Shown here piece by piece: positions 2-23,685 of a stretch of 64,000 nucleotides of DNA (position 1 is the first letter of the stretch; every line of letters begins with the position of its first letter). The stretch is from Lactobacillus helsingborgensis (GTDB taxonomy: Bacteria > Bacillota > Bacilli > Lactobacillales > Lactobacillaceae). Under the pieces are notes generated by a model that saw only the letters and a program-made list of their open reading frames with translations, made no database searches and was not told the origin of the DNA. Both the position numbers and the translations under genes were made by a program. Where the stretch lies: positions 781,755-845,754 of the forward strand of contig NZ_KQ034046.1 in assembly GCF_000970855.1 (NCBI RefSeq), given 5' to 3'.

Positions 2-3000
2 CTGATTTATGATGGTGGTAATTTTAACATTTTACCACGAGGATCGTTAAACATTAATGGCTCAAATATGGGCGACTATTCTGGTACTTTAGTCCTAATT
101 AGGGGTACGGCCAATATTGAAAACGGTGGTTTCAATATCGTTCTTGGAAAGCTAGGTCCAAATGGTAGATACGTAGATGGCGGTAATGGCCAAATACTTT
201 TGGTAGATGTGCAAGGCGGGAAGTTATTTGTTAATAATCCTACCTCATTAATTTTGAATGTCCAGGGCAATACCAATCCTGCTACGAGTATTATCGGCAC
301 AATGCCGATTACCTTAACAAATGTGCGGCAGCAGTTTGATTTGAGCTCAACACAAACTGGGGTTGGTAAAGTAACATTGCCACCATTTCACGTTTTAACT
401 GTTAGGAAAACTGACAATACAATTGCAGTTGATAATATTGAGTTGCTTAATGGTCAAGAAAAGCTAACTGCAGATAAATTAGCAGAAATTAAAGCACAGG
501 CAGCCAAAGCTCATATTTCACTTGATAAATTGCCGCCTGATGTTCAAAATTCGTTGGCTGATGGGATTAAGAACGGCTGGACTTACGACCAAATCTTTTC
601 GGATATTATTCAGAAAGCATTCAATAATAGCAATAATTTTGGCTATAACAACATTAGTTTCATTCCAGCCAATCCGAGTGGTTTTTTGGATATTGATCCT
701 GGTAAGGTACAGATAACCAGAAATTCTGATGGTTCACAAACAATTTCCGGTGAACCAGGCAGCGTAATTAATTATAATTTTACTGTTGATGGTCCGGATT
801 CAGATCCAGAAAATTTGAAAAACCCATTTAGTTTGATTCTCCCAGTTGCGACTAAAGCATATATTATGGCTAATTTAATCGATAGTATGGGAGTAAAAAC
901 TGCGTGGACACCAAAGGATCAAAATGGCAAGAATTTAATTGACAACCCATATTCGCAAACAAAAGACACCATAAGAGATTCAAGCAACAGTTCTTTGAGC
1001 CCTTTACCAACACAATTTGCAGCAATTGTAAATGATGATGGTTCATTTAGTTTTACTATTCCAGCCGATCAAACGATTAAGTTTGATAAAGGTTACTCTG
1101 TAGAATTAACTCCAAATGCAAACTTTGTTAGCTACGATCCATCAAGTGTAGCTGCAAGACGTCGCCCAATTGTTAAAAACTTAGATATTTTAACTTTGTC
1201 TGATGCACAAGATCAAGCTGCTAAGGCAATAACTGACGCAATTAGTGATGCGAAAATTCATAGACCTAACAACCTATCTGAAGCTCAAGTTAAAGACTTT
1301 AATGAGCAATTAGATAAAGTTGCGGCCGCTGCATCCAAAACAATTGATACTAATAACGAAAAAACTTCAGTTTATGCTTCAAGTGCAAACACTTTAAGCG
1401 AGGTTAACAATCGTAAGAATGCTGCTCTTGATGTAATTAAGAATATTGTAAGTCAGGCGCAAAATTCTTCAACTATCGAGTCGTCTCGCGATAGTGCAAT
1501 AACTAATTTAAATAATGAAGCCACATTGCAGTCAAAGAGATTCCCTACAATGGTAGATGCAATTAATGCTGCACGTGATAAAGCAATTAATACTGTGAAA
1601 GGTATTCAAGCTGATAAAGATATTACTGAAGCAATGAAGAATGGTATTAATGCGATTGATCAAGCAGCTTATGGCTATAAAAAGAGTATTGAAATTGATC
1701 TTAAACAAAAAATTGATCAGGTCTATGTCGATACTTACAAGCTTGCAAACGATCCTAATTTGAGTAAAGAAGAGAAGGACGAAGTATTAAAGCTAACTAG
1801 TCGTTTGTCGCGCGCTCAGGCTATTGCTCAACCGGAAGGTGACATTGAAAAAGACCTTGATCAAGTATCAGTGGATGGACACCAAAAAGAAGCTCAAGGT
1901 ATAATTGATCAAGTTAACAAAACAATTCAGGCCCTAAAAGACTTACAGGCTGTTGCTCAAGATGAAATTAAAAACCATGCCGATAAAACTGCAGAAATAA
2001 AAGATTCTTATAATCAAGCAGTTCATAACATTATTACCGGTGATGATCCTGATGGTTCCAAGGGTAAGGAGTCTATTAAGGAGATAAATGCTGATCAAGA
2101 AGCAAGTAAAATTAAGGCTGCAGCTGCGGCTGCCAAAGAGCGAGTACAAAATTCAGGCATTAGTTTAAATCAACAGACTCCTTTACTAGATGCAATTGAT
2201 CAAGCAACTGAAGTTGCAACTGCTAAACCAGGAAGTTCTAAGTATGATGAGCAAAAGTCAATTTACGGAACATCTGATAACACTGCGATCAAACAAAGAG
2301 AAGCAGCTGCACAAACTATTTTTGATCAAAATGCTGCAAAGGCTGAGATTTTGGGTTATGCGAGCGCCAATGAAAATTCGTTAGGGATTTCTTCAAACTC
2401 TGATATCGAGAAAACAGTAAATGATGGTTTGACCAATATTGATCAAGCCAGCGATTCTACTGCTGTTTCAACAACCGAGGAGTCAACTAAGCGATCAATT
2501 TTAAGACAGCTTTCTAAGATTAAACTTGCTAAAGCTGAAAGCGATATCGAAACCCAACTGCGTAGTTTGCCTGGTTTGTCAGCAAATGATATTGATGATA
2601 GCGTTGCGGCTGCACAGAAGTTACTTAACAATTTAACAACTCCTCTTGGTTATAACCAGCGCATTGATCAGGCAGACAGTTTAACTGCAATTGATTCAGC
2701 GCGTAATGATGGTATTGCTGCCTTGAACAACTTACTGGCTTCAGCTAAAGCTAAGGGTGAGCGTAACAATTCCTTAGCTGATGCTATCAAGCAGATCAGA
2801 CAAGCGCAAACAAAAGCTAATAATCAAATCGATCAGACAAGCAATCTGACTGATGAACAAAAGAAAGCATATCATGATCAAATCAGCAAGGTAGTTAACG
2901 ACAATATCGATATTTTAAACAAGGTCGCTAGTTCTAAAATCGTTGAGACAGTCACTAACGCTAAAAACAGTATAGATAATATTGTAAGCGATGCACAGGG

Positions 3001-6000: not shown

Positions 6001-8707
6001 TATTAGCCAAGTTGCCAGCGATTTAACTGATCAGCAAAAGGCGGATTTACAGGACCAGCTTAACCAGTTGATTCAAAAGACCAAGGATGAAATTAGTAAA
6101 GTTGCTTTACCAAGCAGTCCGACAATAACAGATCTCGAAAATGCTAAACAAAAATTGCAAAACATTGAAAAGGGGCTCGATAGCGAAGGACACCCAATCA
6201 ATTTAGGTGAAACTGGAATTAACCAGCTTTACCAAACTGCCCAAGATAAAGAAAAAATATATCAAATTAAGCAAAATGCTATTAATAATCTTCTTGAGCA
6301 AAAAGCAGAAGCTGATAAAAAGCTTGAAGATTCTGGTTTAGTAAACTCTGATTTACAAAAGCAAAAGCAGAAGATTCAGGATATTTACGATCAGAGCAAA
6401 GCAAAGATTAACGCAGTTCCAACAATAGATAAGAACGGAAATGATCGCTCTACAGATGACGTCAAAAAGGACGTTGATCAGATTGTCAGCAACGCAACTC
6501 AAGGATATTCTGATAGTGATTCCGGTAGTCACATTCCTGGATTTGCTGATGTTGAAAAAGATACTGATCTTGCTGCTGCGAAAGCAAAGGCAGAGGATAT
6601 TTTACAAAGAAAATATGCAACAACTCACAACATTATTGGGTTATCTCAACTAACTGCCGCTCAAAAGAAAGCATTGAACAAGATAGTTGATGATTTATAT
6701 GCAAATGAAAAAGCAAGCATAGAGCAGCAAACTGATATCAACAAAATTCCGACTGACGAAAATCAAATTGGTACTAAGCTAACTGATACTTATCAAAATA
6801 CTTCTGAATGGTTTGATTATAATCAAGCTAATGCCTTAAAGGGTGCTGGAAATGAAGTAACAGGTCTAGAAGCTGGGTACAATGGGTTAACTGAAGAACA
6901 AAAAGCCAATCCTGATTATCAAAGCAATATTCAAGCTATACGTGAAGCAATTGATGCAATTAAGCATTCAACAAATATTGGCTCTACAACCCAATCGTAT
7001 AGCAAAGGAATCAATGCTTATAATGGGCTAATGGCCAAAGAACAAGTTAATGATATGTTTAATAAAGCAAAGGACACGCTTAATGATATAGATAGTCTAC
7101 TTCCTCAGGATAGGGATCACTTCAAAAATAGACTTGATGGCATACACGGAAGTATCAATACTGTGCTTACTCAGGATGCTCAAGCTGATGCATCTTATGA
7201 AAATATTGCCAATCAGATGAACCATGATATTGACATGACAAGACAAGCAATTGATCAGTTAATGCAGCAAGCATTGTACACAGTTAAGAGTTCTGCCAAT
7301 AGGGATATTGAGGCTGAGTACAAAGGTGCAGTTGCTCAGAATCAAAAATATTTTGGTGATTCTGCATGGATTTATGCAACTAACAGTGAGCATGACAAAT
7401 ATAAATATATATCTGGTAATTCTTACGATGAAGTTTCGAATAATAGACTAACTGGAATACGGGAAATTGCCAAAGCTGCTGTTTCTGATGCTGCTACTAA
7501 TGCTAAGAAGAAAATTGATAATAACAAAGTAAAGCATGAGAATGGTGATAATTATACTAATGATGAAAAAGCTGTGATTAAGACTGAAATCGACCGCATT
7601 TTAGCTGATGCTCAGGAAAAGATTAATCAAAATAATACTCTAACTGATATTGACGGCAAGCGTGACGATGGTATTGAGACGATTAATAAGGCTTCATCGG
7701 ATTCAACTGTCATTGATAAAATTATTAAAGATAGTGCCAACAATAACAACAATGGCAATAATAACTCTAACAACGATGGAGGCAATTCTACTTCTAACAG
7801 TAATGGTAATACGACTTCCAATCCTGTAAATCCACCTAAGCAGCCAACTACTGATAAAGAAAATGGAACAAATGGTGCGCCAAATGACTTAGGTGAAAGC
7901 ACTAATGTGACTTTAATGCACAATGCTTATCTTTATGACGAAGATGGTAAACGCGCAAACAAGGTTACTTTAGGAGCTGGCTCTACAGTTATCACTTATG
8001 GTACCAAGACAATTAATGGTAAAGAATACTACGTTCTAGTTGATCAAGGTGCTAACAATAAGAAATATTATGTTGCTGCAAGTAATGGTCAAGCTACTAC
8101 CCAAAAAGTTAAGCATAATTCTTATGTATATAATCAAGTGGGTAAGAGAGTTAAGAAGCCTGGAGTGTTCAAGAAAGGTAAAACAGTTAACACTTACGGC
8201 GCAGCAGTCAAAATTCGCGGTAAGAAATACTTTACTATTGGTAAAAACCGCTATATCAAAGCTGCTAACGTTGCACCAGTCACGGCAGCCCAAACTGCTA
8301 AGGAAGAAGTGACAGCAACAAGTAGCAATACTACTACTCCAGCAACTACCACTGTAGTTAAAAAGTTAATGCACAATGCTTATCTCTATGATGAAAACGG
8401 CAAACGTGCCAACAAGTTAATCATTAATTCTGGTTCAGAAATAGAAACTACTGGCAAAAAGACGGTTAAGGGCAAAACATATTATGCCTTAGCAGATGGT
8501 CTACTGATAGATAGTGGCAATGTTGACGCTAAGAAATTAAAACTGAAACATAATGCTTATATCTATAGCAAGTATGGTCATCGTTTAGGTAAAAAAGTTT
8601 TGAAGAAACATAAAGTTGTAAAAACTTATGGTAATCCAGTTAAAATCGGTCATAAGAAATTTTATGTTGTAGCTAGTGGTAAATATGTGAAGAAGGCAAA
8701 CTTTTAG
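2..8707 (+). CDS. Giant SLAP-domain surface adhesin, 5' end cut by the window
   Basis: This reading frame is open from base 2, so the gene begins upstream of the window. The first in-window ATG at 68 is internal, because the preceding codons (LIYDGGNFNI) match the equivalent region of the paralog at 9642-23615. About 2900 residues are visible. The first 130 or so are the end of a pectate-lyase-like beta-helix domain. A second beta-rich segment follows (PSGFLDIDPG to about residue 390), then about 2200 residues of Ala/Lys/Asp/Asn/Gln-rich helical repeats, some resembling DUF1542 or GA/FIVAR-like stalk modules. An Asn/Ser-rich spacer lies at about 7737-7905. Four SLAP half-repeats start near 7909, 8098, 8363 and 8535, recognisable by MHNAYLYDE-type motifs, and end in a basic YVKKANF tail. 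SLAP domains bind wall polymers non-covalently, and no LPXTG motif is present. The likely role is a long fibrous adhesin; the ligand is unknown. Confidence 0.88.
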   Translation: MIYDGGNFNILPRGSLNINGSNMGDYSGTLVLIRGTANIENGGFNIVLGKLGPNGRYVDGGNGQILLVDVQGGKLFVNNPTSLILNVQGNTNPATSIIGTMPITLTNVRQQFDLSSTQTGVGKVTLPPFHVLTVRKTDNTIAVDNIELLNGQEKLTADKLAEIKAQAAKAHISLDKLPPDVQNSLADGIKNGWTYDQIFSDIIQKAFNNSNNFGYNNISFIPANPSGFLDIDPGKVQITRNSDGSQTISGEPGSVINYNFTVDGPDSDPENLKNPFSLILPVATKAYIMANLIDSMGVKTAWTPKDQNGKNLIDNPYSQTKDTIRDSSNSSLSPLPTQFAAIVNDDGSFSFTIPADQTIKFDKGYSVELTPNANFVSYDPSSVAARRRPIVKNLDILTLSDAQDQAAKAITDAISDAKIHRPNNLSEAQVKDFNEQLDKVAAAASKTIDTNNEKTSVYASSANTLSEVNNRKNAALDVIKNIVSQAQNSSTIESSRDSAITNLNNEATLQSKRFPTMVDAINAARDKAINTVKGIQADKDITEAMKNGINAIDQAAYGYKKSIEIDLKQKIDQVYVDTYKLANDPNLSKEEKDEVLKLTSRLSRAQAIAQPEGDIEKDLDQVSVDGHQKEAQGIIDQVNKTIQALKDLQAVAQDEIKNHADKTAEIKDSYNQAVHNIITGDDPDGSKGKESIKEINADQEASKIKAAAAAAKERVQNSGISLNQQTPLLDAIDQATEVATAKPGSSKYDEQKSIYGTSDNTAIKQREAAAQTIFDQNAAKAEILGYASANENSLGISSNSDIEKTVNDGLTNIDQASDSTAVSTTEESTKRSILRQLSKIKLAKAESDIETQLRSLPGLSANDIDDSVAAAQKLLNNLTTPLGYNQRIDQADSLTAIDSARNDGIAALNNLLASAKAKGERNNSLADAIKQIRQAQTKANNQIDQTSNLTDEQKKAYHDQISKVVNDNIDILNKVASSKIVETVTNAKNSIDNIVSDAQGTANKEVEEARTNAAQDIDTAVNDAKAKIESIDDSQLSPSNKKYYEDQIDQDAHAAKAKIASSQNVSDITSAKQEGQNNILKDLGAAQITATKAQAISKLQQAKANAKNTLANSHLDPAIVQAKQDQIDAGYDQAIQAITNDHTVTDINTDAQTGIDAINSVINSLSPDLEAQALEQQRQTAIGKLKDARDSASSQITNDPNLGVTEKNDYYNQITNAFNQAQTAIQGANKDDIDAALTKGKNDLANIQTAANLQSAKDQALAALMDERNKVKEQIGNMDQITSANKADLRAKVDAIYNIGVNGINNKTTTTNGQLNEIVQSGKSLIDNVISDVNVNKILNKQKLDDYAQKAIDRINNSSDITNDAKNTTISNITSARDNAKSAVDSTDAISDANTVEKKGESDIDAAEATGNGFNTSKTDIKNSIANAASSANNRLSDIFSKLSTDQRNEVKDKFNDAINQLGTIPTDANSKIDAATNKEQLTGIYQDALNKINNIESAAKLASDKVVATDLIKNTAYAARAKLNDSRDQNAVFAVADLGIKDIGAANDSATVEKIKNNTLQGISNVVANASESDAEDIRKQRDQAIKELDKALGKDSTATGVLPEINGLSDLTSDQLAKFKQQAQDAYDHAVANVSGALLENIDTEKNTGLSNIYQALADAKLQAAKNKAKSALDDKAQTSIDGDAKDKSTIESERDKAKDNIDKAQNEDDVQKAQDEGNKAIEAIVDTANDENITNAKTSAKNDFDNSTNKLQQQIDQDMADKKLGQDQYNDLKNKIDQIRQSGETRINSATNQDQLSDAKDQNNADLNKVNNEIIKAESVNNALTKLQDAVNKANEAADKIAKDNPNLADQMRDRIKSERDKAAQNIQAAQNNETDANSAMNQAAQAGNDAITGLTQRFEEKNKQINTLKEYAEAAKAKLPSSGLDPNEISQNEAAINNAMQKAVSDLYSADDNADLGQVEKAGEAAIDQAGIPANLLSEKNKQIAAIDKYVKDKGSISQVASDLTDQQKADLQDQLNQLIQKTKDEISKVALPSSPTITDLENAKQKLQNIEKGLDSEGHPINLGETGINQLYQTAQDKEKIYQIKQNAINNLLEQKAEADKKLEDSGLVNSDLQKQKQKIQDIYDQSKAKINAVPTIDKNGNDRSTDDVKKDVDQIVSNATQGYSDSDSGSHIPGFADVEKDTDLAAAKAKAEDILQRKYATTHNIIGLSQLTAAQKKALNKIVDDLYANEKASIEQQTDINKIPTDENQIGTKLTDTYQNTSEWFDYNQANALKGAGNEVTGLEAGYNGLTEEQKANPDYQSNIQAIREAIDAIKHSTNIGSTTQSYSKGINAYNGLMAKEQVNDMFNKAKDTLNDIDSLLPQDRDHFKNRLDGIHGSINTVLTQDAQADASYENIANQMNHDIDMTRQAIDQLMQQALYTVKSSANRDIEAEYKGAVAQNQKYFGDSAWIYATNSEHDKYKYISGNSYDEVSNNRLTGIREIAKAAVSDAATNAKKKIDNNKVKHENGDNYTNDEKAVIKTEIDRILADAQEKINQNNTLTDIDGKRDDGIETINKASSDSTVIDKIIKDSANNNNNGNNNSNNDGGNSTSNSNGNTTSNPVNPPKQPTTDKENGTNGAPNDLGESTNVTLMHNAYLYDEDGKRANKVTLGAGSTVITYGTKTINGKEYYVLVDQGANNKKYYVAASNGQATTQKVKHNSYVYNQVGKRVKKPGVFKKGKTVNTYGAAVKIRGKKYFTIGKNRYIKAANVAPVTAAQTAKEEVTATSSNTTTPATTTVVKKLMHNAYLYDENGKRANKLIINSGSEIETTGKKTVKGKTYYALADGLLIDSGNVDAKKLKLKHNAYIYSKYGHRLGKKVLKKHKVVKTYGNPVKIGHKKFYVVASGKYVKKANF

Positions 8708-8746
8708 GCAATTAATCTTTAAGATTGACTAGTTGCTAAAACCACA

Positions 8747-8783
8747 AAATACCCCAAATTTAAGGTAAATTTGGGGTATTTTT
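8747..8783 (+). terminator. Rho-independent terminator of the first giant adhesin gene
   Basis: A perfect 16-bp inverted repeat (8747-8762 and 8766-8781) with a 3-base loop runs into a T tract. It lies 39 bases after the stop codon. Its A-rich upstream side would let it also work on the other strand. Confidence 0.9.
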
Positions 8784-9016
8784 GCGTCTGGACTTTTTAT
8801 TAAAACACTATTCTTAATTACTGCTAAAAATAGGTTTGCAGCTTTAAGCTGCTAGTTGCTTTAACATAAATAATTGGATATTACAGCGCTTTGCTTTCTG
8901 GCCGTAATTCCAGACGAGTAATTTTAGTTTAATAGCAGGAAAAGTAAATGAATAGCCACTGAAATTTTAAAAGAAAGTCTTAGCTATTAAGTATGTGGCT
9001 GTTTATTTGCTATAGT

Positions 9017-9577: not shown

Positions 9578-9606
9578 TTGACAATGAATAACGCTAGTTA
9601 TAAAAT
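9578..9606 (+). promoter_or_regulatory. Promoter of the second giant adhesin gene
   Basis: A consensus -35 TTGACA (9578-9583) and -10 TAAAAT (9601-9606) are separated by exactly 17 bases. The implied 5' leader is only about 30 bases. It holds the ribosome binding site AAGGAAGGA (9627-9635), placed 6 bases before the ATG at 9642. This suggests strong vegetative expression. Confidence 0.8.
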
Positions 9607-12600: not shown

Positions 12601-15600
12601 AATTAGCTTCAGCCAAAGAAGCTGCTAAACAAGCACTTGAAAATGAACTTAATGGTAACGGTACTTCCGGGATGCCTGGTGTAGCTAACCAAATTGCTGA
12701 TTTAGCAAACAGTGGTTTAACTCAGGACAACGTTAAGATATATCAAGATCAGGCTCAAAAAGCATACGAAGCCGCAAAGAAAGCTATTGATGACTGTGAA
12801 AGTTTTGATGAAATCACTAAAGCGCAAGCTAAGGGTGTAGCAGACATTGATCAAGCTTTGACAGATGCTAAAACACAACAACTTATTGATAAAGCTGCAA
12901 GTGACTTAAAGACTGCTAAAGAAGACGCTTTGGACGAATTAGCAGCTGAAAAGGCAACTGTTGAAGATAACATCGCTAATTTAAAGAATATCAGTACTGA
13001 AGCTAAAACTGCATTTAATAAGGAAGTTGAAGCTTACTATCAAGACGCTGTTGACAAAGTTAATAACCCGTCACCAGCAAGCGTTGAACAAGTAGACATT
13101 GAGAAGAACACTGGGATTATAAACATTAACAGTGTTTGGAACAAAGCTGCAGCACTGGGTAAGGAAATTGTTTTTGACCAGAAAAAACTTGATGAATACG
13201 CCCAAGCTGCAGCAGACCGCATCAATAAGACGGACATGTCTGATGAAGACAAGCAAAAAGCAGTAACCGATATTAACAAGGCGCGTGATGAGGCCAAGAT
13301 AAATGTGGGCAAACAATTAACGGCTGAAGATGCAGATAAGGCTGAAGATGATGGCGAAAAGGCGATAAAAGCAGTTGAAGACAACGCAAATGCAGCCAAC
13401 ATTGAAGCTATTAAAACTTCTAATACTGCTAACGTTAACGCTGCTGCTGATAGCGCAATTGAGCGTGTGAATAAAGCTTATAATAGTTTGACAGAAGCAG
13501 GTCAGCAGGAAAAAGCTGCTGCCGATAAAGCGGCTGCAATTTTAGCTATTAACCAGGCTAAAGCCGCAGCCACCGAAACGATTAACGCTGCTACAACTAA
13601 AGATGCAATCATCAATGCCTTTAATGCTGCTAAAGACAAGTTTGACAATGCGGCAACTACAGCTGAAGTTGCTTTTGCCAAAATAGCAGCTGTTGATGCT
13701 GTCAAGAAAGCAGCTGAAACTGTCAAGCCGAATTTAAGTGCAGCTGATCAACAGACAGTTGATGGTATCGTAGCAAAAGCTAATAGCGATTTCCAAAAAG
13801 CGACAACAGTCGACAAGGTCAACAGCATTAAAGATCAGGCAATTAAAGATATTGCTAATGTTAAAACTACTGCTGATGTAGTTAAGGAAGCTGAGATCAA
13901 GGCTAACAAGGATACGCAGACTGCTAATATTGATACGGCAGCCACAGCAGCCAAGAAACGGATAACTGATGCTTACAATAAGTTGTCACAGGCTAACCAA
14001 ACTAGTTACCAAGAATCGTTACAGAAAGCTTTAGATGATATTGACCAAGCTGCAAAAACTGCTAAAAATAATATTCAGAGTGCCCAAAATGTGGCAGACA
14101 TTATAACTGCAGCAGAAAAAGGCACACAAGCAATTGCTGCTATTGAGACTAAGACAGAAGTAACATTTGCCCAAGCCGATGCTAAAGAAGCAATTGCAAA
14201 TGAAGCTGCTAAGGTTAAGCCGAATTTAAGTACAGCTGATCAACAAACAGTTGATGGCATTGTGACTACAGCTAATGGCAAAATTGATGCGGCTACAGAT
14301 ATTCCAACAATTAATAATATTAAAAATCAGGCGATCAAAGATATTGATCAGGTCAAAACCACCGCTGATTCAAATTCAAAGGAAAAAGTTGAAAAGGCAA
14401 AAGAGCTGAATAGGACTAGTATTGATGATGCAGCTAAAAAAGCGGTTGCTCGTGTTGAAGCGGCTTATAAGAACTTAACACCTGCTGAACAGTCAGCTAA
14501 TGAAGCTGCTTTTGACCAAGCTGTTACCGCCATTAAGAATGCTCAAACTACAGCTGAAGCCAAGATTGCAGCTGCGACTACTGAAACTGAAGTTGCTGCC
14601 GCAGCTAGTGAAGGTACAACAAACATTAATAAGCTGGCAGATGCAGCTGAATTAAACTTTGTCAAGATTACTGCTAACGACGCAGTACAAGCTGAAGCTG
14701 GAAAGGTAAAACCTAACCTCAAAGAAACAGCTGATCAAAATAAAGTAGATGAAATTGTTGACCAAGCTAAAGCCGACATTGGTGCTGCTGAGACCGTTGA
14801 TAATGTAAACAGAATAAAAGAGAATGCAATCAAGGCAATTGACAACGTCAAAAGTAATGCAGAGCAAACAATTCAAAAAGCACAAGAATTAAGCAGAGAA
14901 AGTGTTGATGCCCAAGCAGATGCCGCTAAGAAGCGGGTCAAAGATGCTTATGATAAGCTCACAGCTGATGAGCAAAAGACGACCGCAGTTCAAACTGCTT
15001 ATAACGCAGCTAATAATGCCATTGATAAAGCTAAGACTGTAGCAGAGACTGCAATAGCTGCCGCACAAACTAATTCAGAAATCACAACAGCTGTTGATAA
15101 TGCTAATAAAGCCTTTACACAAGCAGCTTCTGACGCCGAATTGGCCTTTGCCAAGGTGGCTGCGATAGATGCAGTTCAGAGTGAAGCGGACAAAGTCAAG
15201 CAAGGCTTAAAGCAAACAGTTGATCTTAATAAAGTAGATAGTATAGTAACCCAGGCTCAAACTGATTTGAACAATGCTGATAGTGTTACCAAAGTTGACT
15301 TCATTAAAGACCAGGCAATTAAAGATATTGATAATGTTAAAGCTACAGCTGATGCAGCTGTTGACAATTCCCAAACAGTCAATAAAGCTAATATTGATAA
15401 AGCGGCAGCTGAAGCAATTCAACGGGTTCAGAATGCATATAACGAGTTATCTGCGGCTGAACAAGAGCAGGCTAAGTCAGAATACAATAAAGCTGTCAGT
15501 GATATTAATGAGGCAAAGAAGACTGCGGATGCGGCAATCCAAGCAGCAAAGACAGTAGATGATGCGACAAATGCTGCTATAGCAGGAATTTCTGCAGTTA

Positions 15601-18600
15601 ATGATATTGCCAACAAGACAGAACTATCATTTGCAAAATTGGGAGCTAAAGCTGCGGTTAAAGCAGCTGCAGATGCAGTCACTAACGGTCTTGATAATGA
15701 AAACCAGCAAAAGGTACAAGAGATAGTAGCTACAGCAAATACTAACATTGACAAGGCTACTACTATCACTGACGTGGTTAGACTAAGAGACCAGGCTATC
15801 AATGATATTAAGGGTGTCAAAGCTGTGGCAGACGCTGTTCAAGAAGCACAGCTAAATGAAAACAAGAAAAACAACACCGCTAATGTTAATGAAGCTGCTG
15901 ATGCTGCTAGAAAACGTGTCGATGATGCATATAGCAAGTTGAATGAATCTCAAAAGAATGCTAATCACCAGACTTACCAAAATGCCCTTGATGCGATTGA
16001 TAATGCTGCAAATAGTGCAAATAACCAAATTGCACTGGCACAGTCAAGTGATCAAATATCAGAAATAGTTAAAACTGCTAAGACTCAGTTTGATAATGCA
16101 GCCACAAAAGCGGAAGTAGCTTTTGCTAAAGTAACAGCTGTTGCAGATATTTTGAATGAAGCGAATAAGGTTAAACAAGACCTAAAGGCTGATGCTGATA
16201 AGAATCGGGTTGACAATATTGTTAACACTGCTACTACCAGTATTAATAGCACTAATACTGATACTGTAGCTAAAGTAACCAGTATTAGAGATCAGGCTAT
16301 TAAAGATATCGACGCTGTTAGAGCGGAAGCTAATGGTGGTGAACAAGCCAGTCTGGAAGAAACTAAGAATAATCGGACTGGTGATGTTAACAAAGCAGCA
16401 GCAAACGCTAAAGCTCGGGTTGATACGGCTTACGGTCAGCTGACACCTGCTGAACAAGATGTAACAAAGCAGACCTATACTGATACTCTTGCTGCAATTG
16501 AAAATACGCGCCTTAAAGCAAATAATGATATTGCCAGTGCTGATAATAAGGATGCGGTAAGCGATATAGCAGCAGCTGCTGAGCAGGAACTTGATCAAGA
16601 AGCAACAAAAGCAGAGGTGGCATTTGCGAAAACAGCTGCTAAAGATGCGATTCAGGCTGAAGAGCAGAGTGCTATTGCCGACCTTAAAGGTCAAGACGAT
16701 AAGACTTCTGTGCAGAACATCGCTAACAATGCTATTAAAGAAATTGACCAAAATTCGACAGATACTGTTGCCAAAGTAAACAGCATTAAAGATAGTGCTA
16801 TTAGTGCCATTAAGGCTGTTAAAAACACGGCAAATGCGGTAGATCAAGCTATTGTTGAAGAAGCTCGCAAAGACAGTTCTGCGAATATTAATGAAGCAGC
16901 TGAAACAGCTAAGAAGAGAGTTGAAGCAGCATATAGTAAGCTGACGGGAACTGAACAAGCAGTTGCCAAACAGGCTCATGATGACGCCCTTAGCGCAATT
17001 GCAAGTGCACAAAAAGCTGCTAATGATGCAATTTCTTCATTAAATTCAAAAGCAGAAATTACTCAGGCAGCAAATGAGGGTATTAATAAGATTGATGCAG
17101 CAGCAAACGAAGCAGAAGTAGCTTTCGCCAAGGTAGCAGCTAAGGATGCAGTTCATGAAAAAGCCAAATCTGTCATAGATCAGTTAAATAAATCTGATGA
17201 TAAGAAAAAAGTGCAGGAAATTTCTGATCAAGCAGATAAAGATATCGACGCAACTGGAACAGATACTGTAGATAAGGTAAACAGCATTAGAGATAAAGCA
17301 ATCAACGATATAAGTAATGTAAAAGCAACTGCTGATGACAATGAACAGAAAGAACTGGAGCAAACTAAGGAAAATAATAAGACTAGTGTTGATGATTTAG
17401 TTAAAGCTGCTAAAAAACGTGTTCAAGATGCTTATGACAAACTCGGAAAAGACGAAAAAGTTTTAGCTGCAAGTGATTACAATAAAGCCATGGCTAACAT
17501 CTCTCAAGCCCAAGCAACAGCAAATGATGCGATTAGTGCGGCTGCAAATGCGGATGCAATTGTTAAGGCGGTAAGTACTGCGTCTACTGCCTTTGATGCG
17601 GCAGCTACAACAGCTGAGGTGGCATTTGCTAGAGTGACAGCTAAGACTGCAATCCAAGCTGAAGCTGATAAAGTCAAAAAAGGTTTGAAACAGGAAGTTG
17701 ACCAAGCTAAAGTCGATAATATAGTGTTACGGGCAGAAAATGATCTTGCTGCAGCTGTAAGCGTAGATAATGTAAATACTATTGCGGCTCAAGCTATTAA
17801 AGACATCGATGCCGTTAAAGATACTGCTGAGGAAAATGAGCAGAAGGATTTAGCTAAAGTTAAGGATGATTCTAAGCAGAGTATTGATCAAGCTGCCACA
17901 GCTGCAAAGCAAAGAATTAAGGATGCATATAATACTCTTAGTGCAGATGAACAGGCAGCAACTAAGACAGATTATGACAAGGCAATCCAAACCATTACCG
18001 ATGCTCAAACTGCAGCTAAAGCTGCTATAGAAAAAGCAACAGATAAGGATGCCGTAAGTAAAGCTGTCGGAGACGCCGATCAGGCTTTCACCCAAGCAGA
18101 AACGGAAGCTAAATTAGCATTTGCCAAAGTAGCAGCTAAAGATGCTGTTGATAAAGTGGCAAGTACTGTTAAGGGTAATTTGAGTAAGGATGCTGATAAG
18201 AAACAAGTAGATGTAATTTCAACTCAAGCTGATACTGCTATTGATAAAGCTACCGATATCACAATGGTCAATCAATTAAGAGATAAGGCAATTAGCGATA
18301 TCAATGCTGTTAAAGCAACTGCCGAGGCAGTCGACAAAGCTACCTTGGAGCAAGCTAAGGATAATGGTAAGACCAATGTTAATGGTGCTGCTGCTGATGC
18401 TAAAAAACGGGTAGAAAATGCTTATAATAATCTTAATTCTGACCAAAAGAATGATAATTATCAAGCATACCAAAATGCTCTTACTGCAATTGACAATGCC
18501 GCCGATGCAGCAAATATCAAAATTGGTCAAGCCCAAACTGCTGACGAAATTAAAGGGGCAGTTGATGATGCTAAGACTAAGTTTAATGATATTGCAACCA

Positions 18601-21600
18601 AAGCTGAAGTAGCCTTTGCTAAAGTTATAGCTAAAGCTGCTGTTCAAAAGGAAGCAACAAAGGTTAAGAATGACCTGAAGTCTCAAGCTGATAAAAACAA
18701 GGTTGATGGTATTGTTAACCAAGCTAATATCCAGTTTAACGACAGTGCTACAGACACAGTGCAAGAGGTAAACAGTATTAGGGATAAAGCAATCGATGAT
18801 ATCGATGCTGTTAAAGACGCAGCTAACGGCAATGAACAAGCAAGCTTAGAAGAAACTAAGAATAATCAAAAGGGTAATATTAACAGTGCAGCAGACGCAG
18901 CTAAGGCCCGAGTAGAAAAAGCTTATAATGATCTGGAAAAAGATCAACAACAAAAAACTAAGCAGGTTCATGATAATGCAATTACTTCAATTGAAAATGC
19001 ACTTCAAAAAGCAATTGCCGATATTCAAAATGCTGAAACTAAAGATGCTGTGGTAGCCATAGCAGCAACAGCAGAGCAAAAATTTGATCAGGAAGCAACA
19101 AAAGCAGAGGTAGACTTCGCAAAAGTGGCAGCTAAAGATGTAGTTCACAAGGAAGCTGCTAACGCTCAAAGTCAGTTAAAGAACACTGCTGATAAACAAA
19201 AGGTTCAAAACATTTCTGATCAAGCAGATACCGATTTTGATGATGCTGCAACAGATACGGTAGACAAAGTAAATAGCATCAAAGAAAATGCTATTAGTGC
19301 AATTAATGCTGTTAAAAATACTGCATCAGCAGTAGATGAGGCTTTGCTAGAGCAGGCTCGTAAAGACAGCACTCAGAACATCTCTAATGCCGCAGAAGCT
19401 GCTAAGAAACAAGTTGAAGATGCTTATGAAAAACTAAGTTCAAGTCAAAAGGCAGCAACAAAACTTGACCATGATAATGCGCTTACCGCAATTGAAAATG
19501 CCCAAACTGCAGCCATTGATGCAGTCAATGCAGCAACAAGCAAAGATGCTATCACTTCAGCAGTTAATGATGGAGTTAACAAGATTAACGCAGCAGCAAC
19601 CACTGCAGAAGTAGCTTTTGCAAAAACAGCCGCTAAAGATGCGGTTCAAGCTGAAGCTGCAAATGTGATTAAGAAGCTAAAAGACAAAAAAGATCAGGAA
19701 ACAGTTCAGAAAATCGCTGACGATGCAGTAACAAATATTGACAATGCTTCAACTGATACAGTGCAAAAGGTCCATGACATCAGAGATCAAGCTATCAATG
19801 ATATTGATAAGGTGAAGAATACTATTGAGACCGCTGAACAAGCTAAGTTAGAAGAAGCTAAAGACAATAGTCAGGCAAGTGTTGATGAAGCTGCTGCAGC
19901 CGCTACAAAACGGGTTGAAGATGCATATAATAAGCTTAGTTCGCTGCAACAAACCAAGACTGAAGCAGATCATGATGAAGCTATTACTGCAATTAAAAAT
20001 GCACAAAAAGCAGCAAATGAAGCTATTGCGCAAGCAAAAGATAAGAGTGCAGTGGCTGGAGCTGTTTCAACTGCAAATACAGCCTTTGATCAGGCGGCCA
20101 CTCAGGCTGAAGTAGCTTTTGCAAGGGTAGTTGCTAAAGAAGATATTAGGAATGAAGCAGATAAGATCGAAAATGGCTTGAGCCTTGAAAGTGATAGGAC
20201 TAAAGTTGAAGGCATTGTCAACGAAGCTAATACACAGTTAAATACAGCTGATACAGTGCAAAAAGTCAATGATATTAGAGATCAAGCCATCAGTGATATT
20301 GATAGTGTCAAGACAACTGCAGATCAAACTGCTGCTACTAAGCTTGATAATGACAAGAAAGATGCAATTACTGCTTTAACTAACAAACAAACTGAAGTTA
20401 AAAATGGCATCGATTCCCTGAAAAATGTCAGTGCTGAAAACAAGACCGCTCTAAAAGATAAAGTAGATCGCTTCTACCAAGATGCAGTTAACAAGATTAA
20501 AGATGTAGGTACAACTACTTCTGACCAAGTTAACAGTGCTAAACAAGAAGGCATCGATAACATGAGCAAAGTTCTTGAGGATGCAAAAGCTTTAGATACA
20601 GCTATTGCAAATGACCAAAAGAAATTAGATGATCATGCTTCTGCAGCAATTGACAAGATTAATAAGTCTGATTTATCTGACGCTGATAAAGAAAAGGCTA
20701 TTGAATCAATCAATAAAGCTCGTGATGATGCTAAAGAGACTGTTGGTTCACAGCCAACTGTCGAAAAGGCAGACGCAGCTGAAAAAGCTGGAGAAAGTGC
20801 AATTGATACAGCTGAAAAAACTGCTACAGATACAGATTTAGGAAATACTAAACTTACCGAAAAGACCAAAGTCGAGGCTGCGGCAGACAATGCTAAGAAA
20901 CAACTTGATGATGATTATAATAAGCTGACTCTTGACCAGCAAAAGGAAGTTAAAGATAAGTATGACAAAGCTAAAGCAGATATTGATCAGGCTAAAGCTG
21001 ATGCTGAAAAAGCAATAGATTCAGCTACTTCCAAGCAAGATGTCAATAATGCTTCTGATAAGGCTAAGACTGACATTGACAAAGCTAAAAATGACGCTGA
21101 ATTAGCCTTTGCTCAAGCTGCAGCTAAAGACGCAGTTAAAGCAGTTGCTGAAGATATCAAGAGTGGCTTAAATAGACAAGAGGATAAGAACAAGGTCAAC
21201 GATCTTGTTACTCAAGCTAATAAAGACATTGACGCTGCAACTACAATTGATTCTGTAAATAGCATTCGTGACAAAGCGATTACTGCAATTAAGGGTATTA
21301 AGAATTCTGCAGATCAATCAGATAAAGATGACTTAGCTGCTATCAAGTCAACTAATAAAACAAATGTTGACCAGGCAGCAACTAAAGCTAAAAACCGTGT
21401 TGATGAAGCTTATAACAAGCTTGATGACACTCAAAAAGCAACTACTAAAACTGATTATGACAATGCTTTAGCCGCTATTGAGGATGCTAAGAAAGCAGCC
21501 GAAACTAAGATAAACAGTGCTACTAATGCAGACGCGGTTGCAGCAGCAGTTGACAATGCTTCTAGACAATTTGATTCTGCAGCAGCAACAGCTGAACTAG

Positions 21601-23615
21601 CCTTCAGTAAAGTAGCTGCCAAAGATGAAGTCAATAAAGCAGCTTCTACAGCTAAGCCAAGCTTGAGTAAAGATAATCAGGATCGGGTAGATGAAATAGC
21701 AAAACAGGCAAGTGTTGATATTGATTCAGCTGAAACTGTTGCCAATGTTGCTAGAATTAAGCAAACCGCTATTGATAAAATTAATGCCTTAAAAGGTAAT
21801 GATGAAAAAGACTTAGCTCAAGCTATCTCAAATGCCAAAGCAGAATTGAGCAAAAAGCATGATGATGCGGTAGCAAGACTGAAGGATAAGTTTGGTAATG
21901 ATGCAGATACCACTGAAGTAGATAAAGCATTCAACTCGAATAAGGACATCACTGGAGCATCGGTTGATGAAGTTAAAGAGCACGAATTAGCAGCCGAAAG
22001 GGAATTGGCTAAAGGCGAAGTTCAAGATACTGGCACAAATGCTAAGAAGAAAGTTGATGAATTAAAGCACAAAGATGGTACTGACTATACCCAAGCTGAA
22101 AAAGATGCTATCAAGAACCAAATTAACAAAGATGTTCATCACGCTATTGATAAGAATGGTACTATTGATCAAGCAAGCGATTCAGCTGGTGTGGATAAAG
22201 CTCGTAAGGATGCAATTGACAAGATAATTGGTGACACAATTCCTGACAGTCAGGAAGTTATCAACATCATAAATCAAGATAAAGAAGTTCTCAGTCAAAG
22301 ACTTGCTAAGATTCGTGAAGCTGCTACTGCATATTTGAGACAGAAATTTGGTCCTGACACTGATGATAGTGCCATTCAGCAAAGTTATGAAGCTGCACTA
22401 GCAAAACTTAAAGCAAATCCTACAGACTTAACAACCGAACTTGAAGGTGAAAAACTGATAGCCAAGGGCGCTTTAGCAGATGCCCAAAAGGCTGCTAATA
22501 AGCGGGTTGATAGCGACAATAATTATGATTCTTCTGCTAAAGCTCAGATTAAGCAAACTATTCAAAAAGATTACAACGATCTTCTAAATAGTATCGAAGC
22601 TAGTTCGGCAGTTAGTGAAATAATTACGGCAAAACGTAATCTCGGAATTGATCAACTATATCGTGATGCTACTGAAGCTAATGTTCATGTCACTAACATT
22701 GTAGAAAATGGCGGTGGTGCTCAAACTCCTGGAATATTGCCGAATCAACCAAATAAGACTGATGATAAAGATAAGGATACTGATAAGAAGAATGAAGACT
22801 CTGAAAGAGTTGTCTTGATGCACAATGCTTACCTCTATGATGGCAATGGCAAACGTGCAAACGGCATTACTTTGGGAGCTGGTTCAATTCTTGATACATA
22901 TGGTATTGAAACAATTAACGGTGACCAATATTATGTCTTAATTGATAAAGGTGATAATGATAAGAAATACTATGTAGCAGTTGGCAACATTAAGAGCACA
23001 GCCCAAAAGCTGAAGCACAATGCTTACATTTATAACCAATATGGCAAGCGGGTTAAGAAATCTGGTAAACTGAAGACCGGTAAAGCTATTGCCACTTATG
23101 GCAGCAGCGTCAAAATTCGCGGCAAGAAGTACTTCACTATTGCTAAGAATCGTTATATCAAGGCTGCTAATATTGCTAGTCAAGATGTATTGCTTAAGAG
23201 TGCAACAGCAAAACAAGGAGCTGCAGTTGCCAGCGGAGATCAATCACACATCCTGATTAATAAGAAAGTTATGCATAACGCATACCTTTACGATCAAAAA
23301 GGTATTCGTGCCAATGGCTTAATCATTAATGCAGGTTCAACAGTTGATGTGGTAACTCAAAAAGTTGTTAATAAGAAGATCTATTATGTTCTTGAAGATG
23401 GTTTGTATATTGCCGCAGGCAATATCGACTCTAAGAAACTTAAACTAAAACGCAACGCCTACATTTACAATCAGTATGGCAATCGTGTTGGTAAAAAAGT
23501 GCTGAAGAAACATAAGTCCGTAAAGACCTATGGTAATCCAGTTAAGATTAAGGGTAAGAAATATTACACCGTAGCAAAGAACAAATTTGTTAAGAAAGCT
23601 AATATCAAAGGATAA
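9642..23615 (+). CDS. Giant YSIRK/SLAP repeat adhesin (4657 residues)
   Basis: This is a complete giant surface protein. A YSIRK-type signal peptide (FSIRK at residues 23-27, hydrophobic core, probable cleavage after VKA at 51) is followed by a Ser/Thr/Asp/Lys-rich linker to about 230. A pectate-lyase-like beta-helix adhesive domain covers about 235-650, and a second beta-rich segment covers about 723-895. A helical stalk runs to about 4360 and is dominated by DUF1542-like repeats with the motif AEVAFAKVAAKDAV recurring every 161-167 residues. Four SLAP half-repeats (22808-23612) form the wall-binding end. No LPXTG sorting signal is seen. The neighbouring gene upstream is a paralog with the same ends but a different stalk. 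The ATG has a strong ribosome binding site. Giant staphylococcal Ebh-type proteins use similar stalk modules, so a long adhesive or wall-organising fibre is likely; the target is unknown. Confidence 0.93.
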   Translation: MLGKNNFKERLRKMEMQQKQDRFSIRKLTIGAASVLLGFTFLGLGSQTVKADTDLSTQQVDRKTETKSSESDLSEAATENNKAASQSTQDDRQTKKTEKEPKLSTFSGLSSFLKSSDEDSKSVSKTKTTKEQTKKDSKESDQSTAVKQPDTEANDANAVTPGKTDSTGKDTNTDITSGDNTASDGKLPEDSQANVIKPGDDTSNNDEQNNSTDKIAPAKNKNPLVKDAGDGFSYQVYNWKDFQDALNNINITEIILMNDVSADPNNGNNRFNVPGRTLLIRSNGDAKYKLDFTGYSPRQSRGTNADITYQSLNMRSGDYYGVWDTEYVSDNYHANIMFKDCSFEGSQLIYAGSNTHIFFTGNNDVHTAKWPNHTDQQMFEFTNGNENDSIEFLDGEFVGSTYGGTIIEMKSKTNTVKIDRGATVTLNPVQDFDENRSTGEGGKPFSAIYMESGGIVQVGGVLNINIGLNKVRPYKGTRDAGKARAVYLKDSGSTFNILQNGQVNINTNGNITDAASGNLFYDNGNLNISPNGELNILGSNMGDYSGTLVYITGSADVENGAFNIRLGDKPGTGAINLLDVHGGTLKINNPTSFILDSHNNKNTATSIIGNNKITITNVRQQLQTNSGSRFTLPPLHVLQLQKSAKGISVNTIEMLDGNKTLTQEQLDEIKNDPAIKDIINDRKFGSFLTAAEAAVKNPESNRLDDIIKNALENALSSSDSDSYNNVTFVPANPSGFLDIDDDNLQVIKNNDGSRTIKGKVKNYTEAEDGPSNDNAFYKYFPKGTKGYVIIRYISSNAKYNRVIQEDKNLKPYANTNDTYRGNIIDRVPELPKVFTSAINPDGTFSVTIPAGITLNMNKGDKVEITPNANFVEYSPEVVAVGSRPIVKSIDILTLSEAQDDAATTIRNAVKDAESKKPTNLKESQSQTFEDELAKALAMADSVTESNKDTTVYGADTIAEVNRRRGAALDLVNKALQIANEESAEQDKLASAKEAAKQALENELNGNGTSGMPGVANQIADLANSGLTQDNVKIYQDQAQKAYEAAKKAIDDCESFDEITKAQAKGVADIDQALTDAKTQQLIDKAASDLKTAKEDALDELAAEKATVEDNIANLKNISTEAKTAFNKEVEAYYQDAVDKVNNPSPASVEQVDIEKNTGIININSVWNKAAALGKEIVFDQKKLDEYAQAAADRINKTDMSDEDKQKAVTDINKARDEAKINVGKQLTAEDADKAEDDGEKAIKAVEDNANAANIEAIKTSNTANVNAAADSAIERVNKAYNSLTEAGQQEKAAADKAAAILAINQAKAAATETINAATTKDAIINAFNAAKDKFDNAATTAEVAFAKIAAVDAVKKAAETVKPNLSAADQQTVDGIVAKANSDFQKATTVDKVNSIKDQAIKDIANVKTTADVVKEAEIKANKDTQTANIDTAATAAKKRITDAYNKLSQANQTSYQESLQKALDDIDQAAKTAKNNIQSAQNVADIITAAEKGTQAIAAIETKTEVTFAQADAKEAIANEAAKVKPNLSTADQQTVDGIVTTANGKIDAATDIPTINNIKNQAIKDIDQVKTTADSNSKEKVEKAKELNRTSIDDAAKKAVARVEAAYKNLTPAEQSANEAAFDQAVTAIKNAQTTAEAKIAAATTETEVAAAASEGTTNINKLADAAELNFVKITANDAVQAEAGKVKPNLKETADQNKVDEIVDQAKADIGAAETVDNVNRIKENAIKAIDNVKSNAEQTIQKAQELSRESVDAQADAAKKRVKDAYDKLTADEQKTTAVQTAYNAANNAIDKAKTVAETAIAAAQTNSEITTAVDNANKAFTQAASDAELAFAKVAAIDAVQSEADKVKQGLKQTVDLNKVDSIVTQAQTDLNNADSVTKVDFIKDQAIKDIDNVKATADAAVDNSQTVNKANIDKAAAEAIQRVQNAYNELSAAEQEQAKSEYNKAVSDINEAKKTADAAIQAAKTVDDATNAAIAGISAVNDIANKTELSFAKLGAKAAVKAAADAVTNGLDNENQQKVQEIVATANTNIDKATTITDVVRLRDQAINDIKGVKAVADAVQEAQLNENKKNNTANVNEAADAARKRVDDAYSKLNESQKNANHQTYQNALDAIDNAANSANNQIALAQSSDQISEIVKTAKTQFDNAATKAEVAFAKVTAVADILNEANKVKQDLKADADKNRVDNIVNTATTSINSTNTDTVAKVTSIRDQAIKDIDAVRAEANGGEQASLEETKNNRTGDVNKAAANAKARVDTAYGQLTPAEQDVTKQTYTDTLAAIENTRLKANNDIASADNKDAVSDIAAAAEQELDQEATKAEVAFAKTAAKDAIQAEEQSAIADLKGQDDKTSVQNIANNAIKEIDQNSTDTVAKVNSIKDSAISAIKAVKNTANAVDQAIVEEARKDSSANINEAAETAKKRVEAAYSKLTGTEQAVAKQAHDDALSAIASAQKAANDAISSLNSKAEITQAANEGINKIDAAANEAEVAFAKVAAKDAVHEKAKSVIDQLNKSDDKKKVQEISDQADKDIDATGTDTVDKVNSIRDKAINDISNVKATADDNEQKELEQTKENNKTSVDDLVKAAKKRVQDAYDKLGKDEKVLAASDYNKAMANISQAQATANDAISAAANADAIVKAVSTASTAFDAAATTAEVAFARVTAKTAIQAEADKVKKGLKQEVDQAKVDNIVLRAENDLAAAVSVDNVNTIAAQAIKDIDAVKDTAEENEQKDLAKVKDDSKQSIDQAATAAKQRIKDAYNTLSADEQAATKTDYDKAIQTITDAQTAAKAAIEKATDKDAVSKAVGDADQAFTQAETEAKLAFAKVAAKDAVDKVASTVKGNLSKDADKKQVDVISTQADTAIDKATDITMVNQLRDKAISDINAVKATAEAVDKATLEQAKDNGKTNVNGAAADAKKRVENAYNNLNSDQKNDNYQAYQNALTAIDNAADAANIKIGQAQTADEIKGAVDDAKTKFNDIATKAEVAFAKVIAKAAVQKEATKVKNDLKSQADKNKVDGIVNQANIQFNDSATDTVQEVNSIRDKAIDDIDAVKDAANGNEQASLEETKNNQKGNINSAADAAKARVEKAYNDLEKDQQQKTKQVHDNAITSIENALQKAIADIQNAETKDAVVAIAATAEQKFDQEATKAEVDFAKVAAKDVVHKEAANAQSQLKNTADKQKVQNISDQADTDFDDAATDTVDKVNSIKENAISAINAVKNTASAVDEALLEQARKDSTQNISNAAEAAKKQVEDAYEKLSSSQKAATKLDHDNALTAIENAQTAAIDAVNAATSKDAITSAVNDGVNKINAAATTAEVAFAKTAAKDAVQAEAANVIKKLKDKKDQETVQKIADDAVTNIDNASTDTVQKVHDIRDQAINDIDKVKNTIETAEQAKLEEAKDNSQASVDEAAAAATKRVEDAYNKLSSLQQTKTEADHDEAITAIKNAQKAANEAIAQAKDKSAVAGAVSTANTAFDQAATQAEVAFARVVAKEDIRNEADKIENGLSLESDRTKVEGIVNEANTQLNTADTVQKVNDIRDQAISDIDSVKTTADQTAATKLDNDKKDAITALTNKQTEVKNGIDSLKNVSAENKTALKDKVDRFYQDAVNKIKDVGTTTSDQVNSAKQEGIDNMSKVLEDAKALDTAIANDQKKLDDHASAAIDKINKSDLSDADKEKAIESINKARDDAKETVGSQPTVEKADAAEKAGESAIDTAEKTATDTDLGNTKLTEKTKVEAAADNAKKQLDDDYNKLTLDQQKEVKDKYDKAKADIDQAKADAEKAIDSATSKQDVNNASDKAKTDIDKAKNDAELAFAQAAAKDAVKAVAEDIKSGLNRQEDKNKVNDLVTQANKDIDAATTIDSVNSIRDKAITAIKGIKNSADQSDKDDLAAIKSTNKTNVDQAATKAKNRVDEAYNKLDDTQKATTKTDYDNALAAIEDAKKAAETKINSATNADAVAAAVDNASRQFDSAAATAELAFSKVAAKDEVNKAASTAKPSLSKDNQDRVDEIAKQASVDIDSAETVANVARIKQTAIDKINALKGNDEKDLAQAISNAKAELSKKHDDAVARLKDKFGNDADTTEVDKAFNSNKDITGASVDEVKEHELAAERELAKGEVQDTGTNAKKKVDELKHKDGTDYTQAEKDAIKNQINKDVHHAIDKNGTIDQASDSAGVDKARKDAIDKIIGDTIPDSQEVINIINQDKEVLSQRLAKIREAATAYLRQKFGPDTDDSAIQQSYEAALAKLKANPTDLTTELEGEKLIAKGALADAQKAANKRVDSDNNYDSSAKAQIKQTIQKDYNDLLNSIEASSAVSEIITAKRNLGIDQLYRDATEANVHVTNIVENGGGAQTPGILPNQPNKTDDKDKDTDKKNEDSERVVLMHNAYLYDGNGKRANGITLGAGSILDTYGIETINGDQYYVLIDKGDNDKKYYVAVGNIKSTAQKLKHNAYIYNQYGKRVKKSGKLKTGKAIATYGSSVKIRGKKYFTIAKNRYIKAANIASQDVLLKSATAKQGAAVASGDQSHILINKKVMHNAYLYDQKGIRANGLIINAGSTVDVVTQKVVNKKIYYVLEDGLYIAAGNIDSKKLKLKRNAYIYNQYGNRVGKKVLKKHKSVKTYGNPVKIKGKKYYTVAKNKFVKKANIKG
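12880..13430 (+). repeat. Bracket module, first copy in the second adhesin
   Basis: This helical module has the motifs YYQDAVDKV and FDQKKLDEYAQAAADRI. It differs from the DUF1542-like units and precedes the array. A diverged copy lies at about 20335-20860 in the same gene and another at about 3765-4390 in the upstream paralog. Confidence 0.7.
13420..21850 (+). repeat. DUF1542-like tandem array with a period of about 165 residues
   Basis: The anchor codon in the AEVAFAK-type motif falls at 13665, 14157, 14649, 15138, 15621, 16113, 16614, 17115, 17616, 18111, 18606, 19107, 19608, 20109, 21099 and 21594. Spacings are 492, 492, 489, 483, 492, 501, 501, 501, 495, 495, 501, 501, 501, 990 and 495 bases. 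Each unit carries a KKRVxxAYxKL helix and a KVNSIRDQAIxDI helix. The 990-base step is two periods, in which the bracket module occupies one slot. Confidence 0.85.
20335..20860 (+). repeat. Bracket module, second copy in the second adhesin
   Basis: The motifs FYQDAVNKI and NDQKKLDDHASAAIDKI match the first copy at about 12880-13430. The distance from the module to the next array anchor is 741 bases here and 744 bases at the first copy. Module plus following unit therefore look like one duplicated block. Confidence 0.7.
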
Positions 23616-23678: not shown

Positions 23679-23685
23679 AATTCGT

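Follow-up and report, generated by a model that had tools for sequence, protein, structure and literature searches.

What keeps the several Lactobacillus species of the Firm-5 group distinct when they live side by side in a single bee gut is an unsolved problem. The locus studied here concerns giant surface proteins: do neighbouring genes of this kind share one origin, and do they follow the genome that carries them? Part of the locus lies in a stretch of 64,000 nucleotides from Lactobacillus helsingborgensis (RefSeq assembly GCF_000970855.1, contig NZ_KQ034046.1, positions 781,755–845,754), referred to as the window, in which a first-pass annotation had described a tandem pair of giant SLAP-anchored adhesin genes with shared ends and different stalks. 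We consider it probable that the two genes of this honeybee-gut bacterium belong to a fibrillar array of four paralogs, that the stalk of the last one was amplified from a stalk common to the other three, and that about 45 kb of the array was exchanged between species.

The window contains two adjacent open reading frames (ORFs) on the forward strand, at positions 2–8707 (2901 aa, running off the left edge) and 9642–23615 (4657 aa), in agreement with the at least 2900 and the 4657 residues first noted. They are called gene C (ORF1) and gene D (ORF2), and in each protein of the locus a YSIRK signal (outside the window for C) is followed by a head of solenoid type, by a stalk of helices and, as anchor, by four SlpA motifs. 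A blastp comparison of the C part with D gave two matches only, one in the head (residues 1–506 against 519–1002, 44% over 513 columns, E 7e-111) and one in the tail (2482–2901 against 4266–4655, 48% over 424 columns, E 4e-104), and the stalk had no match at E 1e-3. The heads scored 360 bits compared to a maximum of 26.6 among 50 shuffles, and the tails 343 bits compared to 70–105 bits when five unrelated proteins with SlpA domains from this genome were used; tail scores on this level were found only among related giants, i.e., the tails of the upstream genes A and B and of a gene at a second locus (347 bits). The proposed likeness of heads and tails beyond unrelated SLAP proteins was thus confirmed, and four SlpA stretches (PF03217), the predicted SLAP half-repeats, were detected by Pfam in each protein. 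The described contrast between a regular DUF1542 array in D and a heterogeneous stalk in C held for regularity (the 167-aa period of D stands 8.3 standard deviations above other lags, the best lag of C 2.6) but not for the family, as DUF1542 stretches were present in both proteins (11 and 13).

A PF03217 search of the window's own genome (G000) showed further giant frames directly upstream, which rules out a two-gene locus. The region G000:C2:758385-805369 holds four genes on one strand: A (3482 aa), B (3396 aa), C and D (4657 aa). Gene C starts outside the window, at G000:C2:780060, and is interrupted by a 244-base N run (G000:C2:781511-781754) that abuts the left edge of the window, so that ORF1 shows only the second half of the C head; the two parts were treated separately. 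Pairwise, A and B aligned over their full length (40%), and the alignments of B with C (2929 columns, 53%) and of A with C (2220 columns, 38%) included the stalks. The 'heterogeneous' stalk of C is therefore the common stalk and D is the exception, aligning with A at the ends and in one stalk patch (37%) and with B at residues 7–1860 (34%) and in the tail. Shared ends with different stalks accordingly describe C compared to D but not the locus, where A, B and C have a common stalk, and C and D are neighbours in a row of four rather than a complete pair. A fibre set of three members of one length and one longer member is plausible, rather than of two different lengths.

The head alignment matched 21 of 75 genomes of the genus. 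Sequence identity to named records linked G029 to L. kullabergensis Biut2, G030 to L. laiwuensis, G027 to L. kimbladii, G024 to Lactobacillus sp. W8174 and G066 to a metagenome bin. The four-gene order was kept in G000, G029, G024 and G066; G030 has it as well, interrupted by a contig break that separates C from D. Complete C orthologs measured 3382–3390 aa in G029, G066 and G024. In the same three genomes the order and the intergenic gap between C and D recurred, so the gap is real and misassembly is ruled out. In G029, G024 and G030, D is followed by a headless gene E (1423–1518 aa) that is absent in G000 and G066; that of G029 (C2:820331-824887, 1518 aa) has the stalk end and the anchor of D.

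Head and tail trees were quick trees without bootstrap, each with 43 of 48 collected proteins (five headless rows omitted from the head tree and five contig-end partials from the tail tree). Two contig-end genes of G007 were left out of the collection; among the 21 matching genomes, G041, G049, G053 and G055 were not included as full genes, and one matching gene each was used for G048, G050, G051, G052 and G054. Genes B, C and D and the second-locus gene X each formed one clade in the head tree (Shimodaira–Hasegawa-like approximate likelihood ratio test, SH-aLRT, 100), with A heads scattered, and the tail tree had a clade of its own for each of the genes A, B, C, D, E and X (SH-aLRT 95–100). 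Because orthologs group by their position in the array, the duplications predate the divergence of these orthologs, and the ancient tandem duplication first suggested is supported for four paralogs in line. The stronger claim of duplications that predate the species was softened, given that the array itself was probably exchanged and that the clades date the ortholog split. Gene conversion between paralogous anchors was ruled out, as the tails cluster by gene.

The origin of the deviating D stalk was addressed by searching its segments as profiles against the paralogs. D 1090–1340 and D 3596–3818 both matched one and the same stretch of the common stalk (around A 1809–2058; 83–124 bits), and D 3983–4140 matched the common-stalk end (A about 2912–3101; 26 bits in A, 44 in B and 30 in C). 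The regular units of D matched the paralogs A, B and C weakly (about 9–16 bits), for the most part in or beside the A 1809–2058 region, and were 33–59% alike among themselves, with raised similarity between units 5–8 and 10–13 (50–59%), likely the trace of a five-unit duplication. On these matches a foreign stalk was rejected: D keeps common parts and was most likely lengthened by internal amplification. Of the 'stalk replacement or expansion' first considered, replacement is not supported, and the simplest reading is that one segment of the common stalk was amplified to give the D stalk, other parts having been lost. Replaced stalks on one duplicated pair with similar heads, giving two fibre types, is an explanation we find barely credible; the pattern of the C–D alignment is what such a pair would give, but there are four genes, three of them with a common stalk, and the stalk of D retains common parts.

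The D array, with 18 units including partial ones, was found at nearly the same coordinates in five orthologs, whose total length is 4657–4661 aa, i.e., within 4 residues, and the positional ortholog was the nearest unit in all 52 comparisons. Stalk gap runs numbered 16 in A, 6 in B and 1 in D (five genomes each) and 1 in C (three genomes). The constant length of D might suggest a 'ruler', but a strong claim of this kind was toned down, as the synonymous divergence (dS) of the D stalk is only 0.04–0.31 (eight genome pairs). The D-like gene of G018 (C11:17420-23101), cut by a contig end, weighs against it too: it has a shorter array, with units resembling u2–u4 (74, 87, and 62%) and then a C-terminal unit type. 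The locus is in any case an example of how a fibre may lengthen, one segment of the common stalk having seemingly been amplified and the length kept in five orthologs.

Array and flanks were compared in five genomes (G000, G066, G029, G024 and G030) using nine flank genes and nine stalk pieces. The flank genes fell into two groups, G000 with G066 and G029 with G024 and G030, with dS of 0.05–0.40 within groups and from 0.27 to saturated between them. For G029, flank dS was 0.08–0.40 compared to G024/G030 and 0.27 to saturated compared to G000/G066, whereas the stalks of its genes A–D showed 0.02–0.19 compared to G000/G066 and 0.17–0.71 compared to G024/G030. In the control pair G000–G066, array and flanks were alike (stalk dS 0.04–0.16, flank dS 0.05–0.17). 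As the grouping of G029 in the array is opposite to that in the flanks, a transfer of about 45 kb is the most economical reading. That constraint, through codon bias or high expression, and not transfer keeps synonymous divergence low in the array is very unlikely in our judgement. Giant, perhaps highly expressed genes might change slowly at synonymous sites, and stalk dS between G000 and G024/G030 (0.20–0.71) is indeed below that of most flank genes; however, the control pair has like stalk and flank dS, heads and anchors of the same genes reach dS 1.3–2.0, and constraint cannot reverse the grouping of G029 between array and flanks, by which it is largely refuted.

The G029 locus was scanned in 600-base windows by identical bases of the best match, a difference of more than 2 points being scored as nearer. 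All 11 scan windows left of A and all 36 from the D stalk end onward were nearer to G024/G030, and 69 of the 75 array windows were nearer to G000/G066, with three ties and three reversed; five of these six deviating windows lie inside the D stalk and one, a tie, in C. The left border of the tract was placed no more than about 0.6 kb from where A begins and the right border near D residue 4185, between the stalk and the SlpA domains. The D gene of L. kullabergensis thus has a donor-type head and stalk with a resident anchor, and is followed by the resident gene E. Inside the tract, the anchors of A and C came along (dS 0.10–0.12), and that of B is intermediate (0.37). Small G024/G030-like patches, as after later gene conversion, were seen in the D stalk at G029:C2:811900 and 814900-815500.

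We propose that a tract of about 45 kb, from the start of A to the end of the D stalk, entered the L. kullabergensis lineage from the lineage of the window by homologous recombination, and that the D anchor and the flanking genes stayed resident. As judged from the sequence comparisons, recombination between species has probably exchanged the array. An assembly chimera, or contamination of Biut2 by a G000-like strain, is improbable as the source of the tract: the pattern comes from one genome of the species only, and giant repetitive genes often assemble badly, two of those in G000 containing N runs, but the G029 array is not identical to that of G000 or G066 (dS 0.02–0.19), the 60 kb and 20 kb around both giant loci are free of N within one 2.0-Mb contig, D contains the small G024-like patches, and a similar pattern was found at the distant second locus.

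At this second locus, the fifth member, X, lies on contig C3 of G000 and is broken by a 298-base N run at G000:C3:223325. The head and stalk of X in G029 showed 94–100% to G000 in 13 of 14 windows (1589601–1597401) and 72% in the remaining one; the right flank showed 76–84% in the seven windows where G000 aligns well, and two anchor windows 62–82%. These values suggest a similar, more mosaic switch, which we regard as supportive only.

Gene A indicates exchange on a smaller scale. Between G000 and G066, its stalk (92–95%) and anchor (95%) are similar and its head halves are not (55 and 44%), and the first head half of G000 A is nearer to G024 (83%) than to G029 (69%). The dS of A was 2.03 and 1.32 in the head compared to 0.11 in the stalk, with a ratio of nonsynonymous to synonymous divergence (dN/dS) of 0.06–0.41 in the regions computed, so that the jumps in dS point to replaced alleles and not to fast-evolving sites. 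The A heads are mosaic, and individual heads (A above all) and some anchors seem to have been swapped further. Between genomes, then, heads and some anchors are exchanged and stalks stay alike. That the giant loci in general are islands of exchange between species, where co-resident species swap complete fibre sets by homologous recombination, about 45 kb at the main locus and head plus stalk at the second, with the core genome and the terminal anchor remaining resident, is a tentative extension to which we give slightly less than even credence. If true, attachment or recognition traits would be shared community-wide by recombination with the core genomes kept apart, and surface identity would be decoupled from species identity within one gut community. 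Gnotobiotic bees, a tractable animal model, allow a direct test of the exchange idea.

The features of the two window genes and of the gap between them are as follows (window coordinates; + is the forward strand).

2..8707, +: 3′ part of gene C, 2901 aa (ORF, paralog alignment)
2..1519, +: second half of the C head (GDYSGTLV region) and stalk start (44% to D 519–1002, alignment A1)
1520..7440, +: heterogeneous stalk of C with DUF1542-like stretches, common to B and A (Pfam, alignments, periodicity)
7889..8704, +: four SlpA motifs of C, i.e., two predicted teichoic-acid-binding domains (PF03217 x4)
8746..8782, listed on −: terminator-like near-palindromic hairpin between C and D (consensus match; T run after it on +)
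9220..9250, +: second terminator-like hairpin, ahead of D (consensus match)
9578..9606, +: promoter-like site TTGACA-17-TAAAAT upstream of D (consensus match, weak)
9642..23615, +: complete gene D, 4657 aa (ORF)
9696..9770, +: YSIRK signal peptide of D (PF04650 E 1.1e-8, TIGR01168 E 1.3e-10)
10317..11606, +: beta-solenoid head of D, aa 226–655, beginning with the pectate-lyase-like adhesive domain
11607..12431, +: second part of the D head, mixed alpha/beta, aa 656–930, model confidence locally low (structure model)
12432..22421, +: stalk of D, aa about 931–4260, helical where modelled (periodicity, units, model)
13659..20102, +: thirteen consecutive D units of 161–167 residues, aa 1340–3487 (units 6 and 7 modelled all-helical)
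22809..23612, +: four SlpA motifs of D, i.e., two predicted teichoic-acid-binding domains (Pfam; phmmer to S-layer chains 7qeh and 7qfg)

PF03217 scored 186 and 165.5 bits (cut-off 23) at the C-termini of the two window proteins, in both of which the last SlpA motif nearly reaches the stop, and phmmer matched two separate stretches of the D anchor to the surface-layer (S-layer) protein chains 7qeh and 7qfg (E 1.6e-19). The complete YxY....KxxN motif was found in one of the four SlpA motifs of A, B and D and in two of the four of C. Anchoring of the SlpA type is in wide use in the 2.0-Mb genome G000, as 65 matches to SlpA domains at E ≤ 0.001 show.

In the D head, the Pectate_lyase_5 adhesive domain (PF20585) was detected with 49.9 bits (cut-off 24.3), and five of the six rows of head alignment A2 matched it, the sixth presumably being the partial C head without that stretch; PF20585 was not reported in the Pfam scan of whole P0001 and P0002. 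An NCBIfam search gave no family for ORF1 and, for D beyond the signal, only a lipase match below the cut-off in the N-terminal region. The PDB sequence search gave a best E of 0.22 for the head and no matches for the stalk. Structure models cover D only, as the head and a two-unit piece of the stalk. The stalk model was all helical (predicted local distance difference test score 95), and its first-ranked Foldseek match was EbhA 2dgj (probability 0.95, E 0.07, template-modelling score 0.25–0.32). The head fold resembles lyases and tailspikes as well as adhesins.

From this anatomy, as read from sequence and models, the proteins are probably adhesins. The YSIRK signal would direct secretion, two SlpA-type domains would hold the C-terminus non-covalently to the wall or to lipoteichoic acid, and a rod of chained three-helix bundles would carry the beta-solenoid head, which may bind a glycan or polysaccharide presented by the host, its food or neighbouring cells. 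With 7 nm per 167–170 residues, as in Embp, the rod would measure about 140 nm in D and about 85 nm in A–C. Components of an S-layer or of a protective coat, or enzymes that cut polysaccharides by means of a pectate-lyase fold, are unlikely alternatives that nevertheless carry some weight, since the SlpA-type anchors are those of S-layer proteins and the solenoid resembles lyases and tailspikes in addition to adhesins.

Several points weigh against the picture of an exchanged array of adhesive fibres with an amplified D stalk. The transfer rests on one recipient assembly, G029, the one L. kullabergensis genome in the comparison, and six of the 75 array windows depart from the dominant signal. 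Because the anchors of A and C moved with the tract, anchor retention concerns the tract edge only. At the second locus, the comparison lacks the left flank of G000 and has one of 14 windows at only 72%, and the X genes of other genomes come about as near, G065 over the first part and G027 and G018 over the last. Matches between the regular units of D and the common stalk are weak. As for the anatomy, the phosphate motif YxY....KxxN is mostly incomplete across the SlpA motifs, and the best Foldseek E values are weak (head 1.1e-3, stalk 7.1e-2).

Genes of this class have been described before. Ellegaard et al. (2015; PMC4449606) reported tandem genes for proteins of 1500–4600 aa at two distant loci in Firm-5 Lactobacillus, carrying YSIRK, DUF1542 and two SLAP domains, with L. 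kullabergensis among the genomes and with low recombination in the core genome. Here, too, four tandem genes and a second locus encode proteins with YSIRK, DUF1542 and two SLAP domains, and the window genes are most likely of the same kind and at the same loci. The feature class is thus real and already known, and what needs correction is the evolutionary history given for the pair. The consulted text of PMC4449606 does not treat the beta-solenoid head ('pectate' gives no match), positional orthology, the origin of the D stalk or exchange of the array. The new element is exchange of the array between species, with borders at the array start and at the last anchor; literature searches, which left most subscription papers and supplements outside their scope, found no report of it for Firm-5.

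In Apilactobacillus kunkeei, the consecutive giant genes Giant1–5 (Pedersen et al., 2026; PMC12863079) encode an N-terminal beta-solenoid resembling the L. reuteri serine-rich repeat protein (SRRP) and, in Giant1–3, a long helical rod, and intragenic recombination and exchange of Giant heads between genera were reported. The solenoid head and helical rod in consecutive giant genes are common to both systems (as modelled here for D), but the anchor is of SlpA type by sequence here and SH3b-like at the C-terminus there, in a different genus; the main text of that paper, as consulted, does not contain the terms SLAP, DUF1542 or Firm-5. The window thus holds a further member of the group of Ellegaard et al. 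and an analogue of the Apilactobacillus cluster. With the binding region of L. reuteri SRRP (PDB 5ny0, 5nxk), the beta-solenoid is common on fold level only: identity is low, the anchor differs, and the stalk here is a DUF1542-like helical repeat without serine-rich repeats. Embp has a 170-aa F-repeat of two bundles spanning about 70 Å, together with YSIRK and DUF1542 (PMC7587433). Like Embp and Ebh (PDB 2dgj), the present proteins would form a giant rod of chained three-helix bundles, here predicted only; in Embp, according to the text consulted, the repeats bind fibronectin, the C-terminus is putatively transmembrane and a solenoid head is unmentioned. The paired SlpA motifs resemble the teichoic-acid-binding (TAB) domain of Lactobacillus SlpA/SlpX (PMC11181022), in line with the match to solved domains (E 1.6e-19); unlike in the SlpA/SlpX proteins described there, two TAB domains stand in tandem here and the proposed phosphate motif is partly kept. 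Brochet et al. (2021; PMC8456714) reported clusters of surface proteins with LRR (leucine-rich repeat), LPXT and SLAP that increase in the bee with pollen, and the present genes may be among them.

Among the predicted signals, three terminator-like sites were found compared to 0.3 expected, and three promoter-like sites compared to 5.5 expected in shuffles, which makes the promoter-like site ahead of D weak. Downstream of D (window 23616–26154), a convergent AAA-ATPase gene, RarA-like but below curated cut-offs, lies 70 bases from the end of D and is followed by rpsD and then ezrA. This flank was also found after the giant genes of G032, which has three, and of G006, where C alone is present between the same flanks. 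In the more distant genome G032, the anchor of the relative at G032:C1:899247-913085 is preceded by a very long low-complexity stretch of the GSNGS type.
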